64,000 nucleotides of DNA from Candidatus Zixiibacteriota bacterium (GTDB taxonomy: Bacteria > Zixibacteria > MSB-5A5 > GN15 > JAAZOE01), in contig JAZGGI010000033.1 of the NCBI GenBank assembly GCA_036480375.1, positions 1 through 64,000 on the forward strand, read 5' to 3'. Below, piece by piece: positions 10,426 through 53,865 of the stretch. The translations under genes were made by a program, and so were the position numbers. Within the stretch, counting starts at the first letter, position 1, and the number at the start of each line of letters is the position of its first letter. The notes below the pieces were generated by a model that did not search any database, had not been told where the DNA came from, and was given only the letters and a program-made list of their open reading frames with translations.

Positions 10426-11244
10426 TCAATCAGGCTGCAAAAGATTAGCGATGTCTTTTTCAAACCGCGCACGGATTAGTTCTAATATATCTTCAGCAGA
10501 TAGCCCATTTTCCATTGCATACCGTTCAACCAATCTTAATCCGGCAAAATACCCTGACCTGAATTGATATATATTGTCCGGATTGGACGCGTAGAAAATT
10601 TCAAGCTTGTGATCGCTCTTATAGTAGTATTGTGAAATCAGGCGGTATAGATTGCGTTCTTCGGCGATGCACTTTTCCCACCATCGCAGAGCATCATCAT
10701 CGCTTAAATAATCCGCCCAGAGAGCTTCCAAATTTGATATCCCAAGAAATTCCCGGGTTAAATAAGTCGCCAGTCCTTCCGTAATCAACTGACGGGAAAT
10801 CTGGAGCATCTCATTCTTCGAGTTAAAGTAAAATGAAGGGCTATTATTATAGTGCAGAGCGTGAATCAATTCATGAGTTACAAAAACCTCAACCAATTTT
10901 TCGGAAGAATAAGTCTCCAGTGGCAACCAGACCAGCCATTTGTCTTTCGAACGAAAAGCATGACCATTGGTTGTCCCAGCGCCTATAAAATAGATAAAAT
11001 CAATCGCGCTATCGTCAATGTTATTCTCATTTAGTATGATTTTCAATTTTTCTATTAATCGAGTAACCCACTTTTTCCGTTTTTGAATCTCCTCATAATC
11101 AACTATAGTAATATTTAATTCTCTTTTGGCCCAGAATCGATAGTAATTATAAAATAGATCAGGGCATGATCTTTCATAGCCGTCTCGATCCCCTTCATTA
11201 ATAAATTTGGATAAATATTTTTCGGTTAAATCAATGATTCTCAT
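10426..11244 (-). CDS. Cytosolic HExxH metallopeptidase-like protein
   Basis: A 272-residue protein without signal peptide. HELIH at 124-128 and the downstream Glu in TEGLATYL (E156) form a gluzincin-like zinc site, the same arrangement as in the neighbouring exported protein at 8556-10148, though the rest of the sequences do not look alike. The N-terminal 100 residues are alpha/beta without a recognised motif. It is transcribed away from the metal-efflux operon, and the intergenic 11245-11438 holds that operon's promoter. A peptidase function is inferred from the motif only. Confidence 0.82.
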   Translation of the reverse strand: MRIIDLTEKYLSKFINEGDRDGYERSCPDLFYNYYRFWAKRELNITIVDYEEIQKRKKWVTRLIEKLKIILNENNIDDSAIDFIYFIGAGTTNGHAFRSKDKWLVWLPLETYSSEKLVEVFVTHELIHALHYNNSPSFYFNSKNEMLQISRQLITEGLATYLTREFLGISNLEALWADYLSDDDALRWWEKCIAEERNLYRLISQYYYKSDHKLEIFYASNPDNIYQFRSGYFAGLRLVERYAMENGLSAEDILELIRARFEKDIANLLQPD

Positions 11245-11404: not shown

Positions 11405-11439
11405 TTGACAGGGTCTATTTTTATGTTATATTGGCGCAA
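11405..11439 (+). promoter_or_regulatory. Sigma-70-type promoter of the metal-efflux operon, likely leaderless
   Basis: TTGACA (11405-11410), a 16-base spacer, and TATATT (11427-11432). Only six bases separate the -10 from the ATG at 11439, so the predicted transcription start coincides with the A of the start codon. No Shine-Dalgarno sequence precedes the gene, which agrees with a leaderless transcript. Confidence 0.65.
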
Positions 11440-11885
11440 TGGAGAAACGGTTATATAATTATGTTTGCCGGGTTTTGATTTTCAGCTTTTCTTTGGCGAA
11501 TTTTACGGCCTGTTTCGGCGATGTCCTCTGCATCAGTGAAGATAGTACTGTGGAAATCGAGTTTGCAAATATTTCCTGTTGCCATGCCGATTGTTTAACG
11601 TATTCGTCCCTTGAAACGCCCGCAATTCATGAATCAACGAATATAGATGATTGCGGCGATTGTATAGACATCCCGTTGAAGTCAATCTGTAATTATAATA
11701 GAACCGCGCCTGAGGATAATTTTGTTTTGGCAGGTAAGGCTGTTAATCTTTGCGAAATCCATCAAATCTTTAATCAATCATTGGGACATAATCTCGATTT
11801 CAAGAATAAATTTCTTAATTCTTTCACTCCCCCTATTAATCCCGAATTAAAACAATTAGGGATATCATCTATTCTCATTTGTTGA
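11439..11885 (+). CDS. Cys-rich secreted or lipidated small protein heading a metal-efflux operon
   Basis: A 148-residue protein with an N-terminal hydrophobic segment. The sequence FTAC at 22-25 could be a lipobox. The mature region holds two cysteine clusters, SCCHADC (47-52) and DDCGDCIDIP (71-79), plus single Cys at 84, 105 and 148. The clusters and the position directly upstream of TolC/CzcB/CusA-type genes suggest periplasmic metal binding or sensing; that is an inference, as I recognise no named family. The start is fixed by the promoter spacing, because no ribosome binding site is present. Confidence 0.8.
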   Translation: MEKRLYNYVCRVLIFSFSLANFTACFGDVLCISEDSTVEIEFANISCCHADCLTYSSLETPAIHESTNIDDCGDCIDIPLKSICNYNRTAPEDNFVLAGKAVNLCEIHQIFNQSLGHNLDFKNKFLNSFTPPINPELKQLGISSILIC

Positions 11886-11994
11886 TTTTATCATCAGCAA
11901 AATATCAACTATTCTGACTTAGTATAATGTGCTCGAATTACGTCTTTCGGGCACACTTGCGACAAAGCAATTGGATATTCCAGAGGAATAATTT

Positions 11995-13320
11995 ATGAGA
12001 TTCAAACATCTAATTTACAAAAGGGCTTTATGGTATTGTATGATTACTGCGACAATGTTTTGGGGGAGCGTATCGTTTGCCGATTCAAATCCGGCTCATT
12101 GGCAATCGCCATTTGAGAAAGCAACGATTAAGCAAATCGACAATGATTCACTTTCGCTCAATGATATTGTCGGACTTGTCGCGGAGAAAAATCCAATCCT
12201 GAAATCATTAAAATGGCATCTTGAATCGGCCGAGGGAAATCTACGCCAGGCCGGGCTATGGTCCAACCCTGAACTGGAACTCGAACTTGAGGAATTTGGC
12301 TGGAACGCTCCCGGTTTCAGGGAAACCGAAATGGCCATTATCCTGTCGCAGGAACTTGAGATTTTTGGACAGCGTGGAGCGAGGAAACAACATGCCCGCG
12401 CCAACATCGATTACACAAAATGGAAAAATCAAAAGCTGGCCTTTGATTTATATCTTGACGCCAAAATGGGATATTTCAAAATGGCTCATGCACAGGATAA
12501 AGCTCGCCTGGCTCGGGAGGCTATGGAGTTAGCGCAGACCATTTATAACAACATTGAAGACCGCCATAATAAAGGAGCCGCCCTACAATCGGGACTGCTC
12601 TTATCCCGGCTTGAATTACTAAAGGCACAATTGGAATCTGACGAGGCATTGCGCGATCGAAAAAACGCGAGTATGGAACTATCTGCGCTTTGGGGCACGG
12701 ACGATAGCGGTGTTGTAGTAGAAGACTTCGGTATTGATTGTCATGAGTGCCTAAAAAACATAACCGAGCTTGATGTTTCTGTTGATTCCTGCGGCGAAAT
12801 CATCGAAATGCTTTTTCAAAAAGATATAATTGACTCGGAAAGCCGGCTTTTGGCCGCCGAAGCAAAACCAGCCCTGACTTTCAGTGGGGGAGTCAAGCGA
12901 CTTCAAGGCGATAAAGCCAATTCATTCATTCTGGGATTATCTCTGCCTCTCCCCTTTGTAAATCGAAATCAGGGCGAACGAGCTGGTCTTCAGGCCGATA
13001 TAAAGGCTCTGAAACTTGAAATAAACGAAAGAAAAGCGAGAGTATCGTCCACCGTCCGCTCTCACATCGGAAAGATTGTGCAACTGGATGAAAAGCTCGA
13101 GATAACTGATTCGCTTCTTTTACCCACCGCCGAAAAAACCTACGAATCTCTGACTCAGGCTTATAATGCCGGAAGAATCCCTTATACCAGCCTGCTTGAA
13201 GGCGAACGGGCCCTGATTGACCTGAGGTTCGATAAAAACAATATATTTCTGAACATAAGAGAACTGCAGATTGAACTGGAAAGAATAATCGGCATTCCCC
13301 TGGAAAGCATAAAAAAATAG
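11995..13320 (+). CDS. TolC-family outer-membrane efflux protein (CzcC/CusC-like)
   Basis: A 441-residue exported protein with a signal peptide (cleavage near SFA-DSN) and the two long alpha-helical hairpin halves typical of TolC-family channels: LVAEKNPILKSLKWHLESA in the first half and AYNAGRIPYTSLLEGERAL in the second. It forms the outer-membrane duct of the tripartite RND system with the next two genes. GAGGAA lies ten bases before the ATG. There is an 11-base gap to the adaptor gene, so they form one operon. Confidence 0.93.
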   Translation: MRFKHLIYKRALWYCMITATMFWGSVSFADSNPAHWQSPFEKATIKQIDNDSLSLNDIVGLVAEKNPILKSLKWHLESAEGNLRQAGLWSNPELELELEEFGWNAPGFRETEMAIILSQELEIFGQRGARKQHARANIDYTKWKNQKLAFDLYLDAKMGYFKMAHAQDKARLAREAMELAQTIYNNIEDRHNKGAALQSGLLLSRLELLKAQLESDEALRDRKNASMELSALWGTDDSGVVVEDFGIDCHECLKNITELDVSVDSCGEIIEMLFQKDIIDSESRLLAAEAKPALTFSGGVKRLQGDKANSFILGLSLPLPFVNRNQGERAGLQADIKALKLEINERKARVSSTVRSHIGKIVQLDEKLEITDSLLLPTAEKTYESLTQAYNAGRIPYTSLLEGERALIDLRFDKNNIFLNIRELQIELERIIGIPLESIKK

Positions 13321-13331
13321 AGGACATAAAC

Positions 13332-14423
13332 ATGAAGGCAATAAAGCTATCCATTTTTCGATTGGTTTTAATTATTACTGTTTTGGTGTTCGCGTTTTGG
13401 TCCCTGTCACTAACCGATTCCACTAGTAACATTCAAAATCAAACTGACCCGCATGAGAATGATCAGAAAACAGATGACGATCACAAGAAAAGTGAATTGG
13501 GGGACGATCATGATCTTGACGCTCAGACGGATGACGGTCATGACCATACCGCCGAGGAATCCGAGGGCGACGAACATGATGAAGAAGAAGAGGGCGTCAT
13601 TGAATTATCAGAGGAAGCGATAAAAATGGCCGGCATAAATCTTTCTACTGTAATAAAAGGCCGGCTTGGCAACTCACTTGACCTGCCCGGAGAAATTACA
13701 TTTAACGAAGATCAAGTTGTGCATATATCACCTCGATTTGAAGGGATCGCAAGGGAAGCCCGGTTCACGGTCGGAGATTATGTCAACGCCGGTGATATTG
13801 TAGCCGTGGTCGAAAGTAATGAAAGTATGAGCCCTTATAATATTAAGTCGCCGATTTCGGGATGGATTATTGTGCGGCATATCTCCAAGGGTGAATTTGT
13901 TTCTGCCGAAAATAGTATTTTTGTCATCGTCGATCTATCAACTGTCTGGGTTAATCTGGCGGTATATCCCAAAGACGCCGACCGCGTAAGGCCGGGCATG
14001 AAAGCATCCATTGAGGCGATTGGTTCTGATATTCATGCCGAGGGAACGATTGAATACATCACGCCTATTCTGGACGTAAATACTCGCAGTATTACGGCCC
14101 GCGTGGTGCTTCCTAATCCGGATAATCAATGGCGCCCGGGGACATTTGTTCATGCCGCCATCACTACCGATTATGGAAAACCCGGACTGTTAGTCGAAAA
14201 AGATGCCGTTCAGATTCTTGATAATGAAAAGATCGTTTTTATCGCTGAAGTCCCCGGGCATTTTATAATCACTCACATTGAAACCGGCGAATACGATTCC
14301 AAATATATAAAAGTTCTTTCAGGTCTTGAGCAGGGTATGCAGTACGTCGCCGACGGCGCCTTTGAGTTGAAAGCCAAATTGGTTACCGGTTCATTGGGCG
14401 GACACGCCGGACACGGACATTGA
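13332..14423 (+). CDS. RND periplasmic adaptor, CzcB/CusB type, with His/Asp-rich N-terminus
   Basis: A 363-residue membrane-fusion protein. Residues 1-28 are a signal/anchor. Residues 39-87 form an acidic stretch with six histidines (41, 51, 60, 70, 72, 82), and the C-terminus ends HAGHGH. These are plausible metal-binding tails. The middle has a barrel-sandwich/lipoyl-like region (VGDYVNAGDIVAVVESNE; PISGWIIVRHISKGEFV) with little hairpin between, then the beta-barrel domain. It couples the TolC partner to the inner-membrane pump. Its stop lies 14 bases before the pump's ATG. Confidence 0.93.
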   Translation: MKAIKLSIFRLVLIITVLVFAFWSLSLTDSTSNIQNQTDPHENDQKTDDDHKKSELGDDHDLDAQTDDGHDHTAEESEGDEHDEEEEGVIELSEEAIKMAGINLSTVIKGRLGNSLDLPGEITFNEDQVVHISPRFEGIAREARFTVGDYVNAGDIVAVVESNESMSPYNIKSPISGWIIVRHISKGEFVSAENSIFVIVDLSTVWVNLAVYPKDADRVRPGMKASIEAIGSDIHAEGTIEYITPILDVNTRSITARVVLPNPDNQWRPGTFVHAAITTDYGKPGLLVEKDAVQILDNEKIVFIAEVPGHFIITHIETGEYDSKYIKVLSGLEQGMQYVADGAFELKAKLVTGSLGGHAGHGH

Positions 14424-14437
14424 GGGGAGTAAGCGGA

Positions 14438-17400
14438 ATGAAAACGATCTTTGAAAACGTGCTGAAAAACCGGCTGTTTATCGTCGTTATTCTTCTGTGC
14501 GTTATAAGCGTGGGAATCTATCAATACCAAAATCTGCCCACCGACGCCTTCCCGGATATTTCTCCGGTTATGGTTCCGGTATTTGCCGAAGCCCACGGGA
14601 TGGCCCCCGAAGAAATTGAACGCCTCATAACGTTTCCGATCGAATCGGCTATGAACGGACTGCCCGGAGTAAAACTGATCAAATCCACATCCGCCTTTGG
14701 CATGGCCGTGGTATATGTCTATTTTGAAGATGATGTTGACATCTATTTCGCCCGCCAGATAGTTTCCGAAAGATTAGCCGGCGCCAGTTCAGAACTTCCC
14801 AAAATGCATGAACCTCCCGGTCTGGGACCGATTTCCACCGGTCTCGGTGAAGTATATATGTATTATCTGACAGCTGACAGCGCCGTTAATACGGAAGGCA
14901 AACAGCTTAATACTTATCTCCGGGAAGTAAACGATTGGATTGTAAAATACCAGTTGCAGACCGTTCCCGGCGTGACGGATATCCTGTCAATGGGCGGCCA
15001 TGTCCTGCAGTATCAAATCAAAGTCGATCCTTACGCTCTGAACAAATTCGGACTGGGTCTGGAAGATATCGTTGAGGCCGTTATCAATAATAACCGCAAC
15101 GCTGGCGGTCAATTTCTCATCCTGGGCTCGGAAGAATATCTCGTCCGCGGAATTGGTCTCATGGAAAAACGCGAGGATCTACGAAACGTTCAAATAAAAG
15201 TATATGAAGGCACGCCCGTTCGCCTCGGCGATGTCGGTGAAGTAGACTATGGGGAAGAAATTCGCCGCGGCGTAGTGACTCGCAATGGAACGGAGGAAGT
15301 CGTCGCCGGTATTGTGATGAAACTGTTCGGGACTAATACTTCGGAAGTGATAAGCGAACTGGAAGCAAAAATACCGCAGGTCCAGGCATCACTTCCCCAA
15401 GGTGTTCAGTTGATTCCTTATTACAATCAAAGTTCCCTTGTCGAAAACGCCGTCAAAACCGTTCGTGATGCCCTCTGGCATGGCGCCATTTTGGTAATAT
15501 TGGTATTGGCTCTTTTTATGGGAAACGCCCGCAGCGCCTTTATTGTCGCGTTGGCTCTGCCCGTTTGTGCTCTGATGGCCGCAATTTTTATGGGCGTGGC
15601 CGGCATGTCGGCCAACCTGATGTCCCTGGGAGGAATTGCGATCGCCATTGGGATGTTAGGCGACGCCTCGATTGTAATCGTCGAAAACGTGTATCGTCAC
15701 TTATCTGATGAAGAATATAAAGACAAGAGTAAATATGAGATTATCAATATCGCCTGCCGCGAGGTTTTGCGCCCGATTATTTTTTCGGTTTCGATTATTA
15801 TTATCGTCTTTATTCCGCTTTTCACCCTCGAAGGCGTCGAAGGCAAGATGTTCTCGCCGATGGCGTTTACGATTACTTTTGCCCTTCTCGGCTCTCTTAT
15901 AGCCGCTCTCGTCTTTTCACCGGTGCTTTCTTCCCTGCTTTTGAAAAAGAAAACAAAACCGGAGTTTGCAATTGTTCGTTTTATTAAAAGCGTTTATCAG
16001 CCTCTCCTTAATTTTGTCCTGCGTTGGAAAATATTAATTGTTGTCATTACACTTATCATCTTCGGAGGATCGCTGGCTCTTATACCACAACTGGGTACAG
16101 AGTTTATTCCCACTCTCGAAGAAGGCATTATTCAAATAAATATTACTATGGCGCCTTCGATTTCGCTTGAAAAGGCAACCGAAACCATTATGAAAATCGA
16201 ACGTATCATCATGGATTTCGATGGTGTTGACCAGACAATTTCAAAAATCGGCCGTCCCGAAGCCGGTAGTCATCCGCATCCGGTCAATTCTTCTCATATT
16301 CAGATAATGCTTAAACCACGGGAAGAATGGTATCAATACAATTCCAAAGCTGAAATAATTGAAGCCCTCGACAAAAAACTCTCTCAATATCCCGGTATTC
16401 AACTCAACTTTTCACAACCAATTCAAAATATGTTTGATGAGCTTCTTTCCGGGGTGCGGACACAGTTGGCTATCAAGCTTTACGGTGAGGATTTGAATAT
16501 TCTGCGATCCAAGGCGGAAGAAATTGAAGCCGTTATTGAACCTGTCGAGGGATTAGTTGATTTATCCATCGAGCAGAGCTTTGGACAACCCCAGGTGCAG
16601 ATTATCGCCAACCGCGAGGCCTGCGCCCGTTACGGCGTCAACGTATCAGATATTCTTGAAGTGGTCGAGCTGGCTATCGGCGGTGAAGTCATCGACAATA
16701 TTTTCTTAAATACGCGCCGCTTCGGGATTCACGTTCGCTATGACGAACGGCATCGCAATGATCCCGAAGCGATAAAAAACCTGCTCGTCCATTCTACCGA
16801 CGGAGTTCTCATCCCTCTTTCACAAGTCGCCCGGGTCGAAACGCTCATTGGCCCAATTCAAATTAACCGCGAGAAAAACCAACGACGCTGGGTAATTTCA
16901 GCCAACGTCCGCGGACGCGATATGGGCGGAGTCGTAGGCGATATCAAAAGGCTGGTTAAAGAAAATATCGAATTGCCGTCCGGTTATTATATAGAGTACG
17001 GCGGACAATTTGAAAATCAGGAACGTGCGATGAAACGGCTGGGAATTATTGTTCCAGTCACTTTTGGGTTAATATTCCTGATGCTTTATATGTCATTTGG
17101 AACCATTCGCTGCGCCTCACTTATTTTTATAAATGTTCCCCTGGCGTTAATCGGAGGTGTTTTGGGTCTGTATTTAACCGGTGAATACCTTTCCGTTCCC
17201 GCTTCGGTAGGATTTATCGCTCTTTTCGGCATTGCCGTACAAAACGGCCTCGTCCTGGTTTCTTATATGGATCAATTACGAAGCCGCGGCTTATCTATAA
17301 ATAATGCGATTATAAAGGCCTGCCTGCTGAGGCTAAGACCGGTATTAATGACCGCCCTGACGACCATATTAGGACTGGTGCCATTATTATTATCGCGGGG

Positions 17401-17539
17401 AATGGGTTCGGAAGTGCAGCGGCCATTGGCGGTAGTCGTAGTTTTTGGGTTACTCTCTTCCACTTTTCTAACACTGATATTAATACCCGTTTTATACGGA
17501 TGGTTCGCACCAAAAATGAGTCGAATAAATGATAACTAA
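14438..17539 (+). CDS. Heavy-metal efflux RND pump, CusA/CzcA family
   Basis: A 1033-residue inner-membrane proton/metal antiporter of the HME-RND group. It has TM1 near the N-terminus, a first large periplasmic domain, TM2-6, a second periplasmic domain and TM7-12, with the usual length. The TM4 signature reads GGIAIAIGMLGDASIVIVEN, closer to the CusA (monovalent metal) pattern GGIAIAIG..DA.IV..EN than to the CzcA DFG..VDGA pattern, so Cu/Ag is the better guess. ATG 14438 is chosen over an in-frame TTG at 14420 because GGGGAG lies just upstream. Confidence 0.94.
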   Translation: MKTIFENVLKNRLFIVVILLCVISVGIYQYQNLPTDAFPDISPVMVPVFAEAHGMAPEEIERLITFPIESAMNGLPGVKLIKSTSAFGMAVVYVYFEDDVDIYFARQIVSERLAGASSELPKMHEPPGLGPISTGLGEVYMYYLTADSAVNTEGKQLNTYLREVNDWIVKYQLQTVPGVTDILSMGGHVLQYQIKVDPYALNKFGLGLEDIVEAVINNNRNAGGQFLILGSEEYLVRGIGLMEKREDLRNVQIKVYEGTPVRLGDVGEVDYGEEIRRGVVTRNGTEEVVAGIVMKLFGTNTSEVISELEAKIPQVQASLPQGVQLIPYYNQSSLVENAVKTVRDALWHGAILVILVLALFMGNARSAFIVALALPVCALMAAIFMGVAGMSANLMSLGGIAIAIGMLGDASIVIVENVYRHLSDEEYKDKSKYEIINIACREVLRPIIFSVSIIIIVFIPLFTLEGVEGKMFSPMAFTITFALLGSLIAALVFSPVLSSLLLKKKTKPEFAIVRFIKSVYQPLLNFVLRWKILIVVITLIIFGGSLALIPQLGTEFIPTLEEGIIQINITMAPSISLEKATETIMKIERIIMDFDGVDQTISKIGRPEAGSHPHPVNSSHIQIMLKPREEWYQYNSKAEIIEALDKKLSQYPGIQLNFSQPIQNMFDELLSGVRTQLAIKLYGEDLNILRSKAEEIEAVIEPVEGLVDLSIEQSFGQPQVQIIANREACARYGVNVSDILEVVELAIGGEVIDNIFLNTRRFGIHVRYDERHRNDPEAIKNLLVHSTDGVLIPLSQVARVETLIGPIQINREKNQRRWVISANVRGRDMGGVVGDIKRLVKENIELPSGYYIEYGGQFENQERAMKRLGIIVPVTFGLIFLMLYMSFGTIRCASLIFINVPLALIGGVLGLYLTGEYLSVPASVGFIALFGIAVQNGLVLVSYMDQLRSRGLSINNAIIKACLLRLRPVLMTALTTILGLVPLLLSRGMGSEVQRPLAVVVVFGLLSSTFLTLILIPVLYGWFAPKMSRINDN

Positions 17540-17585
17540 ATTTGACCGGGGATTAAACCCGGACTACAAGGAAAGGAACATAATC

Positions 17586-18221
17586 GTGAAATCATTGATT
17601 TTTATTTTTCTAATAATGGCTTTGATGTCCCAAGCGTCTCTCGCACAGGAATGCGGCCCCAACTGTCCGGTATGTTCCGGCGCGGGATTAAGCGAGGGAG
17701 TTCTCCTCGCGCGGAATTCAATAATGGTATCAGCATTAGCCGTTCCCGATGCCGAAGAAGAGCGTACTGTCATCAATGTGAAATACGGGATTTTTAATTG
17801 GCTGGACGCCGGAATTGGTTACGCCGTCAGAACCGAAAAATTCATTTGGAATGCGCGCATCCAGCCTCTAATGGAACAAAAAGATAATTGGCGCCCCGGA
17901 CTAATTATTGGAAGCGGCAGCGTCCAAATAGGCGGCAATGACCAGTCAATCTACGCTCAGCTTTTGAAATCAATAAAATTCGACGATGATTTCAGTTTGA
18001 GCGTTAGCGCCGGAGCCGCTACGCTCTTACCTGACGTTGACGAAGTTTTCGAATTATATGGAGTAACAGCCGGTATATTTGAGAATTACAGCCTGTTTGT
18101 TAGTTATGACGGTATATCCTACCACGAAGGCGCATCATGGAAAGCCAATAATTGGCTGGCTATTTCTTTTATGATGATTGAATCGGAATACCTGGCTTTG
18201 GCTATCAACGCTACCCTGTAA
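17586..18221 (+). CDS. Secreted barrel-like protein with N-terminal CxxxCxxC cluster
   Basis: A 211-residue exported protein starting at GTG 17586 (GGAAAGGA precedes it), with signal peptide ending ASLAQ. The mature N-terminus begins with a tight cysteine group (ECGPNCPVCSG), then a strand-rich region resembling a small outer-membrane barrel (YGIFNWLDAGIGYAV, FSLSVSAGAATLL). It is the last gene of the RND operon, 46 bases after the pump, and may be an accessory metal-binding or channel component. The family is not recognised. Confidence 0.82.
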   Translation: MKSLIFIFLIMALMSQASLAQECGPNCPVCSGAGLSEGVLLARNSIMVSALAVPDAEEERTVINVKYGIFNWLDAGIGYAVRTEKFIWNARIQPLMEQKDNWRPGLIIGSGSVQIGGNDQSIYAQLLKSIKFDDDFSLSVSAGAATLLPDVDEVFELYGVTAGIFENYSLFVSYDGISYHEGASWKANNWLAISFMMIESEYLALAINATL

Positions 18222-52587: not shown

Positions 52588-53865
52588 TTAAATAAGAATA
52601 TTATTGGCTACAATTGATGGAAGAAATCTCAAAATTTTTTTCCCTCCGCCTATGCCTTTTGGCAGGCGAACTTTTAAATAATTATCGCTGACGGCGTTAT
52701 AATATCCTTCTTTGTTTTTTGAATGCTCGGAGATGACATATACCTCAACGCCGATATGCTTTTCCAATTGTCGATTACGATTTTTATCACATATTTCGCG
52801 GGCAATGCGGTTTCTTTCTTTTATCACAGGTGGACTTATCTTTTCGGGCATATCCGAAGCCGGCGTGCCCGGACGATCAGAATATGAAAAGATATGACCG
52901 TAATCGATATATCCGGATTTGAGAATATCAAGCGAATATTCAAAATCATCGTCCGTCTCGCCTGGAAAACCGACAATTAAATCGCATCCTATGGTAACCG
53001 CTTCATTCGCCTTTTTTACTCTTTCAGTGATTCTCAAATACGCGTCTCGATTATATGGCCGATTCATGAGTTTCAATATTCTATCTGACCCGGATTGGAG
53101 CGGCAAATGCAGATGCCGACAAACACGGGAGTTATTCGCCACCAGATCCATTAATTCATCATCCAATTCATTAGGCTCAAGAGACGACAGGCGCAGCCTC
53201 GGCAGGCTGGTCTCTTTGAGAATTTTATTGACCAGACCGGCAAGATTCAGGTTGTTAAATTTGTATTTGCCTATATGAACAGCCGTCAGAACTACTTCAT
53301 GGTATCCCCTGTATACCAACTCTTTGGTTTCATTTATTATCTTGCCCGATGAAAATGACACTAACTCTCCTCGCACTCGCGGCACGATGCAATAGCTGCA
53401 ATTCTGATTACATCCGGTGCCGATTTGAACCATGGGACGGTTAGGCGGAGAAATATTTTGATCTGTTAAATCCATTTTACTCAGGCATGAAGCGGAGTCC
53501 GAATCCCCGTCTTGAAACAACGCTGGATATTTTCCCCTGAGTAAATTGGGCAATTCTATCTTCTGCCGATTATCAACCACAAGATCAACGCCGTTCATCT
53601 CAGATAACATATCTTTCTCGGCGACGACGTAACATCCGGCGACAACCATAACAGCATCAGGATTTAGACGATAGGCGCGATTGATTAGATTACGGCAATC
53701 AGAATCGGCCCGTCCGGTAACGGTGCAGGTATTTAGTATATACAGGTCGGCCTTTTGGCTATAGGGTACTCTGCGCAAGCCGTATTCGCTAAGTTTCGCG
53801 GCGATTTGTTCGGTTTCATATTGATTGAGTCGACAGCCGACCGTTGTCAATGCCATTTTTTTCAT
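52588..53865 (-). CDS. mtaB: tRNA t6A37 methylthiotransferase MtaB
   Basis: A 425-residue radical-SAM enzyme that converts t6A37 to ms2t6A37 in tRNAs reading ANN codons. The UPF0004 domain has TVGCRLNQYETEQ and further cysteines (NTCTVTG, VAGCYVV) for one Fe-S cluster; the radical-SAM motif is GCNQNCSYC for the second. The TRAM-like C-terminus is short. CxxxCxxC spacing and the MtaB start motif separate it from MiaB and RimO. It is followed on the minus strand by no close gene. Confidence 0.96.
   Translation of the reverse strand: MKKMALTTVGCRLNQYETEQIAAKLSEYGLRRVPYSQKADLYILNTCTVTGRADSDCRNLINRAYRLNPDAVMVVAGCYVVAEKDMLSEMNGVDLVVDNRQKIELPNLLRGKYPALFQDGDSDSASCLSKMDLTDQNISPPNRPMVQIGTGCNQNCSYCIVPRVRGELVSFSSGKIINETKELVYRGYHEVVLTAVHIGKYKFNNLNLAGLVNKILKETSLPRLRLSSLEPNELDDELMDLVANNSRVCRHLHLPLQSGSDRILKLMNRPYNRDAYLRITERVKKANEAVTIGCDLIVGFPGETDDDFEYSLDILKSGYIDYGHIFSYSDRPGTPASDMPEKISPPVIKERNRIAREICDKNRNRQLEKHIGVEVYVISEHSKNKEGYYNAVSDNYLKVRLPKGIGGGKKILRFLPSIVANNILI

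Follow-up and report, generated by a model that had tools for sequence, protein, structure and literature searches.

A predicted leaderless gene for an exported cysteine-cluster protein heads a heavy-metal efflux operon in Zixibacteria and may act as its translated leader

The 64,000-nucleotide (nt) stretch of DNA analyzed here (Candidatus Zixiibacteriota bacterium, assembly GCA_036480375.1, contig JAZGGI010000033.1, positions 1 to 64,000 of the forward strand; hereafter the window) carries a heavy-metal efflux operon of the resistance-nodulation-division (RND) type, in which TolC, CusB, and CusA genes are headed by a small gene at 11439..11885 (+) for an exported protein with cysteine clusters. 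We consider it probable, with some reserve, that this gene is a translated leader open reading frame (ORF) of the CutF/CzcI kind that controls the operon, and we refer to it as the leader gene. That its predicted leaderless start has been conserved although the proteins have diverged is well supported by comparison of the homologues. Translational coupling between the leader and tolC is moderately supported by RNA energy models. By analogy with a known system, we infer that the nascent chain may pause in a metal-dependent manner.

Start of the leader gene in the window

A sigma-70-type promoter was recognized at 11405..11432 (+), with the -35 hexamer TTGACA at 11405 to 11410, a 16-nt spacer, and the -10 hexamer TATATT at 11427 to 11432. 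It agrees with the consensus at 11 of 12 positions and was the best of 12 sites in a 2-kb scan. The six bases GGCGCA (11433 to 11438) separate the -10 hexamer from the ATG at 11439, and the start is predicted to be leaderless (11433..11441, +). Upstream of this ATG, no stretch matches the Shine-Dalgarno (SD) sequence over at least 3 nt, and no earlier in-frame start codon is met before a stop. Because the upstream gene (10426 to 11244) is divergent and lies on the opposite strand, the leader gene is the first of its operon.

A preliminary description of this DNA had reported TTGACA-N16-TATATT six bases before an ATG that lacks an SD sequence, and this was confirmed at 11405 to 11439. Its statement that the missing SD sequence sets the gene apart from almost all others was right for this gene and overstated as a contrast: among the 280 ORFs with 150 or more amino acids (aa) in 425 kb of the same genome, 82 likewise have no SD sequence of at least 4 nt before the chosen start. 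A promoter abutting the start is rare in that genome, being found for 4 of the 280 ORFs (-10 and -35 hexamers each matching at 5 or more of 6 positions, 4 to 10 nt from any candidate start), and no peak of -10 hexamers 6 to 9 nt before starts was observed across these ORFs.

Another leaderless candidate in the window is a Radical SAM and UPF0004 (methylthiotransferase-like) gene at 52588 to 53865 (-), where TTGGCA-N17-TATAAT ends 5 nt before an ATG with no SD sequence.

Homologues of the leader gene and conservation of its start

When the single protein served as the query, 13 of 60 related genomes, its own included, had a homologue; with a profile, 34 of 132 Zixibacteria genomes did, at 41 places. 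We kept 39 members, leaving out a poor match (G085:C5) and one whose start lies off its contig (G094:C7). Identity to the window protein was 18 to 25% in the first alignment. By hand count, TolC is the next gene on the same strand in 32 of the 39; the gene is thus conserved before RND genes in relatives, the point that the preliminary description had singled out for checking. The other seven comprise one before an adaptor and pump, three before genes assigned by eye to a small lipoprotein and a HupE-like product, two at contig ends, and one between CusA and a DUF5777-like gene. The paralogous leaders L031 (G038:C18), L028 (G046:C19), and L094 (G030:C42) precede a non-RND operon, which encodes a HupE-like membrane protein in all three (by eye) and a GMDCPGCH lipoprotein in two.

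The upstream regions of the members align on TTGAC-N16/17-TATATT-N6-9-ATG, and the distance from the -10 hexamer to the ATG has been kept although the spacer has diverged. The element of the window gene and its spacing to the ATG recur in most homologues: when the best promoter within 70 nt was scored blind, 27 of the 39 members had one that matched at least 9 of 12 positions and ended 6 to 9 nt before their ATG (two at 6 nt, five at 7, nineteen at 8, and one at 9), compared with 45 of 3,900 shuffled upstream regions (1.2%). The leaderless reading of the preliminary description is strengthened by this conservation within the phylum. With a stricter measure shared by all genes of the same loci, 24 of 39 leader starts were leaderless-like versus 1 of 87 TolC, CusB, and CusA starts. 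An SD sequence of at least 4 nt precedes 77 of those 87 starts; before the leader ATG there is none in 23 of the 39 members, one of 3 nt in 12, and one of 4 nt in 4. In G038:C18, G030:C42, G009:C4, and G048, TATATT or a near match is in place with a poor -35 hexamer or one off-consensus base. The promoter lies farther from the ATG or is not clearly recognizable in G098 (11 nt), G043 (12 nt), G010 (31 nt), G063, G124, and G026:C10:167825; the last is a copy behind CusA instead of first in an operon, and it lacks this promoter.

These data bear on the alternative that the gene is not leaderless at all, with transcription starting farther upstream and the hexamers acting as decoys, or with the true start codon farther downstream. 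A second site in the window that matches 10 of 12 positions (TTGGCG-N17-TATAAT, 11431 to 11459) overlaps the ORF start, and the distances of 11 to 12 nt or more in G098, G043, and G010 also speak for it. It nevertheless does not account for a -10-to-ATG distance that is kept while the spacer diverges, and a downstream start would drop the charged n-region of the signal peptide, which begins straight after the leader ATG. We regard this alternative as very unlikely.

A contig scan with a five-sequence alignment returned 15 loci, 6 of them from Zixiibacteriota and the rest from Verrucomicrobiales, Sulfomarinibacter, Poribacteria, and Calditrichota. An abutting promoter matching at least 9 of 12 positions was present in none of the nine loci outside Zixibacteria; two Poribacteria loci have an 11-of-12 promoter about 63 to 69 nt upstream. 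Because the downstream genes are led by SD sequences, no phylum-wide class of leaderless genes was shown, and the outside loci lack the arrangement, the predicted leaderless start characterizes this one gene family within Zixibacteria and is not a habit of the phylum. A phylum-wide class was considered and dropped. Matches to TTGAC-N17/18-TATATT-N6-8-ATG occur in 123 of 129 genomes, and the reversed pattern gave few; in the same 40 genomes, however, there were 188 matches with the ATG at 6 to 8 nt versus 158 with the ATG at 12 to 14 nt (hand-summed). Of 38 such pattern loci that were read, 19 open an ORF of at least 60 aa. No earlier report on leaderless genes in Zixibacteria, or on SD sequences together with translation initiation there, was found in an open-licence library.

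Other features of these promoters were noted in passing. An imperfect dyad, TTGAC-N10-GTCRA, lies over the -35 hexamer in several relatives (G038:C26, G059:C284, G089, G022, G043, G039, and G046:C51) and not in the window; judged by eye, it may be an operator. A recurrent, closely similar promoter (TTGACAAT..CCTT.GCC..TATATT..CTCGGATG) is found in many genomes (for example G070:C274:3095, G032:C56:4099, G075:C64:10260, G034:C2:388183, and G079:C40:9067) and may drive a conserved noncoding RNA; its ATG opens no long ORF at the three loci examined (L130, L147, and L148). Imidazolonepropionase-like genes (by eye) at L132, L141, and L143 (G071, G051, and G055) have a promoter 6 nt before the ATG and are recurrent leaderless candidates.

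The encoded protein

The window protein is 148 aa long (137 to 152 aa in the 39 members). It is comprised of a signal peptide, assigned by eye and followed by an LC motif, the C31 motif, a CCHADC cluster (residues 47 to 52, codons at 11577..11594, +), and a CGDC cluster (residues 72 to 75, codons at 11652..11663, +), and it ends in SSILIC. Alignment of 18 members revealed that C31, C48, C75, and D77 are invariant and that C72 is nearly so, and the two clusters are putative metal ligands. The final residue is cysteine in the window protein and in 35 of the 39 members. Searches of Pfam and NCBIfam gave no credible family for the window protein and 17 homologues; the preliminary description, which had read the product as an exported protein with CCHADC and CGDC clusters and no recognized family, is borne out in this respect. 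Neither the window protein nor any other of the 18 members matched DUF2946 at E values up to 5, and a PDB profile search with the leader family gave no match (best E value, 1.2). The AlphaFold model has an N-terminal helix and is otherwise weak and mostly unstructured (mean predicted local distance difference test [pLDDT] score of 52.5, with 15 sequences as input).

The protein might instead be an ordinary periplasmic metal-binding partner of the pump, such as a chaperone, buffer, or pump adaptor, in which case the leaderless start would be only a compact promoter and the 3' features described below incidental coupling. The invariant residues are what such a partner would be expected to have, the gene is nearly always encoded with the pump, and the PDB and family searches produced nothing resembling a regulator. 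The low-confidence, mostly unstructured model does not favor it, nor do the conserved nucleotides after the stop codon, which lie outside the protein, the conserved length of the gap that follows, or the three members that stand at a similar distance before a different metal operon. Because conservation extends to the 3' codons, the tract after the stop, and the length of the gap in ways that involve the next start, and no confident folded domain is predicted, we prefer a regulatory leader over a metal donor and hold the partner alternative to be unlikely. The preliminary description had proposed a metal-sensing or metal-donating partner; sensing fits the leader interpretation, and a donating role, though possible, has no specific support.

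A second exported Cys-rich small protein, apparently unrelated to the first (CCDEECC...CHCAC, with a C-terminal PPR), was noted in 8 of 129 genomes, at L149/L159 (G080:C286:4463-4768), at L164 (G126:C190), and in six others. The copy in L149 stands directly before a gene for an RND adaptor (PF16576). Two of the eight look leaderless (L159 and L164), and the others do not or are ambiguous.

The 3' end of the leader gene and the gap to tolC

In the window, the last codons and UGA stop occupy 11871..11885 (+) and contain UCUCAU (11873 to 11878), a complement of the AUGAGA found where tolC begins. Folding of the region 11840 to 12020 (z = -4.68) paired these two segments and also gave a strong intergenic hairpin with a 10-bp stem (11928..11955, +). 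The SD sequence of the TolC gene, AGAGGA (11982..11987, +), lies inside a local AUUCC-AGA-GGAAU hairpin. The stop codon is followed by a pyrimidine-rich tract (11886..11892, +), which reads UUUUAUC here and UUCUUUC or UCCUUUC in relatives.

These features recur in the family. The stop codon is TGA in 33 of the 39 members, and the share of pyrimidines after it is 85 to 95% at +1 to +6 and 74% at +7. Over +1 to +7 this amounts to 87%, versus 43% at the corresponding positions of 48 control genes from this DNA, and the information content is 0.44 to 1.45 bits per position versus 0.14 in the background. A similar tract was seen by eye in the Poribacteria and Calditrichota loci. The leucine codons CTT and CTC account for 45 of 56 in the last eight codons versus 205 of 521 in the remainder of the gene. 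The distance from the leader to the gene that follows keeps close to 95 nt (range, 78 to 139 nt; mostly 90 to 106 nt), also in members in which a gene other than TolC follows. In 31 of the 39 members the TolC start could be located by script, and most of these 31 intergenic regions fold better than shuffled sequences. Two complementarities recur, one between the last codons (AUUCUUC) and the SD sequence (GGAGAAU) and the other between UUCUUUCAU after the stop and AUGAAAGGA at the tolC start.

By eye, some gaps contain two copies of GGAGAAT, one lying in a hairpin arm and the other serving as the tolC SD sequence, so that one pyrimidine arm could pair with either (L096:533-687 [G050], L088:5904-6058 [G076], and L090:6367-6516 [G048]).

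Translational coupling in silico and the proposed mechanism

In order to mimic a ribosome, 29 nt around the leader stop were forced to be unpaired, and the cost of opening the tolC start was compared (n = 30; G038:C26 was left out since its scripted start is wrong, the likely ATG being at +102). A ribosome at the leader stop made opening cheaper by a mean of 2.48 kcal/mol, compared with 0.79 kcal/mol for a block placed in mid-gap and 0.47 kcal/mol in shuffles. At 48 control tandem junctions from the same genomes the mean gain was -0.06 kcal/mol (Mann-Whitney p = 1e-6), and a gain of at least 1.5 kcal/mol was observed at 57% of family loci versus 4% of control junctions. RNAalifold, applied to the 16 best-aligned sequences, returned unprompted a helix between the post-stop UUCUUUC and GAAAGG at the tolC start, of 6 bp only and near-zero energy.

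The mechanism that we propose has four steps. Transcription would begin at the AUG or within about 3 nt of it, giving an exported Cys/His peptide from a leaderless mRNA, a prediction strongly supported by conservation of the start. When the leader is not translated, its last codons and the post-stop tract are predicted to pair with the tolC SD sequence and start, holding tolC partly closed. A ribosome that reaches the leader stop, and especially one that lingers there, would free the tolC start and allow the pump genes to be translated, as the energy models suggest. Lingering, finally, may depend, by analogy with CutF, on metal that the nascent exported chain binds through its Cys/His clusters. 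As a consequence of the first step, a transcript reading through from upstream would have no leaderless 5' end, its leader would be poorly translated, and tolC would stay closed; the pump would then be made only from transcripts begun at the operon's own promoter.

The in silico coupling needs no metal and would be produced equally by plain translational coupling without metal sensing, in which a constitutive leader ties tolC translation to transcripts from the operon promoter. Leaderless genes have indeed been suggested to escape translation from read-through transcripts (PMC3160421). Plain coupling, however, leaves the conserved signal peptide, the Cys/His clusters, and the final cysteine unexplained, and we think it quite unlikely.

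Several results weigh against the metal-sensing leader. The two recurring helices cross and cannot simply coexist; they may exclude one another or both belong to a more elaborate fold. The p values for coupling overstate independence, since homologues share ancestry, and in several members (e.g., G111, G074, and G010) placing a ribosome at the stop brings no gain. The free opening cost of the tolC start exceeds that of control junctions but not that of sequence shuffles (p = 0.22). Consensus folding of all 30 intergenic regions gave no pairs. Complementarity with a leader's own partner (16.8) was not significantly greater than that with swapped partners (16.1 +/- 0.48; 16 of 200 swaps reach it), and covariation in the 16-sequence alignment was weak, its score being reached by 29 of 500 shuffles. 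Pausing rests on analogy, because a PP motif occurs in the last 15 residues of only 6 of the 39 members; the window protein lacks it, its own PP lying about 20 residues from the end.

A stronger form of the leader interpretation would be a two-lock element conserved across the phylum, in which a leaderless 5' end made at the leader's own promoter is needed and a metal-held ribosome opens the pump start. We advance it tentatively, as a possibility on the improbable side. If it is true, leaderless initiation would serve as a functional component of the switch instead of being a relic.

The efflux operon and its metal

The leader gene is followed by genes for a TolC-type outer membrane efflux protein (PF02321; 11995..13320, +), a CusB/CzcB/IhpB-type periplasmic adaptor with a His/Asp-rich N terminus (PF16576; best NCBIfam profile, IhpB; 13332..14423, +), and a CusA/CzcA heavy-metal RND pump (TIGR00914 at 1051.8 bits, curated cutoff of 701.45; 14420..17539, +). 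The last gene of the operon (17529..18221, +) encodes a predicted beta-barrel protein that is weakly DUF5777-like (E value of 0.0025, below the curated cutoff). The copper-binding methionines of CusA are M573, M623, and M672; in an alignment of the window pump to Escherichia coli CusA, read by eye, these positions were occupied by N, S, and E. The best PDB match by score was ZneA. Because the pump lacks the three methionines and best matches ZneA, a divalent cation is weakly suggested as its substrate in preference to copper.

Comparison with known systems

Leader ORFs that sense metals and act in cis form a class described only recently. In CutF of Rhodobacter capsulatus (DUF2946), copper on the nascent exported chain is proposed to delay export and so to let a stem-loop over the cutO SD sequence unfold (PMC9973294). 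CzcI, encoded upstream of czcCBA, and CzcI2 are named there as CutF-like proteins without the proline motif. A later paper states that translation arrest in CutF and CruR is still to be shown by experiment (PMC10987492). The family described here would add to this class one without a known domain, from several poorly studied phyla, and would tie the class to leaderless translation. Bacterial leaderless genes, with a -10 hexamer about 10 to 12 nt before the start codon and no SD sequence, form a genome-wide class in some phyla and are mostly discussed as a genome-wide habit or ancestral remnant (PMC3160421). Here, unlike that class, the trait belongs to one gene family and is otherwise uncommon in the phylum, which makes it possible to test directly whether selection can favor leaderless initiation at a single gene to gate an operon.

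Like CutF, the leader is a small exported Cys protein encoded directly upstream of a metal gene across a short gap (PMC9973294). As in the CutF-like proteins, it is shorter than 150 aa (148 aa; 137 to 152 aa in the 39 members), has an N-terminal signal peptide, and is followed on the same strand by a metal homeostasis gene, mostly TolC. In CutF the intergenic RNA shields the next SD sequence (PMC9973294); the energy model supports the same here, with weak covariation. Unlike CutF, the leader has no DUF2946 match and a different cysteine spacing, a separation drawn without the sequence similarity network (SSN) profiles of the CutF authors. CutF also needs a C-terminal proline-rich motif (PMC9973294), which is absent from most Zixibacteria members. 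The leader appears to work like the CutF type, yet it is not classed as CutF-like, because it has neither DUF2946 relatedness nor the C-terminal PP motif. The word "leaderless" does not appear in the CutF paper (PMC9973294).

The uORF of CruR (PMC9426467) and CopL (in PMC9973294) are alike in being ORFs that lie upstream of a metal gene and are believed to work in cis by being translated; they differ in the proteins encoded and in the downstream genes. The czcI2 mRNA of Cupriavidus metallidurans was reported to be leaderless by mapping of transcription start sites, with a 5' untranslated region of <5 nt (PMC7563307), and CzcI and CzcI2, like most members here, are without the C-terminal proline motif (PMC9973294). 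In contrast to CzcI and CzcI2, which come from another phylum and for which the excerpts of these papers describe no phylum-wide conservation of a leaderless start, most leaders of Zixibacteria have kept their predicted leaderless start.
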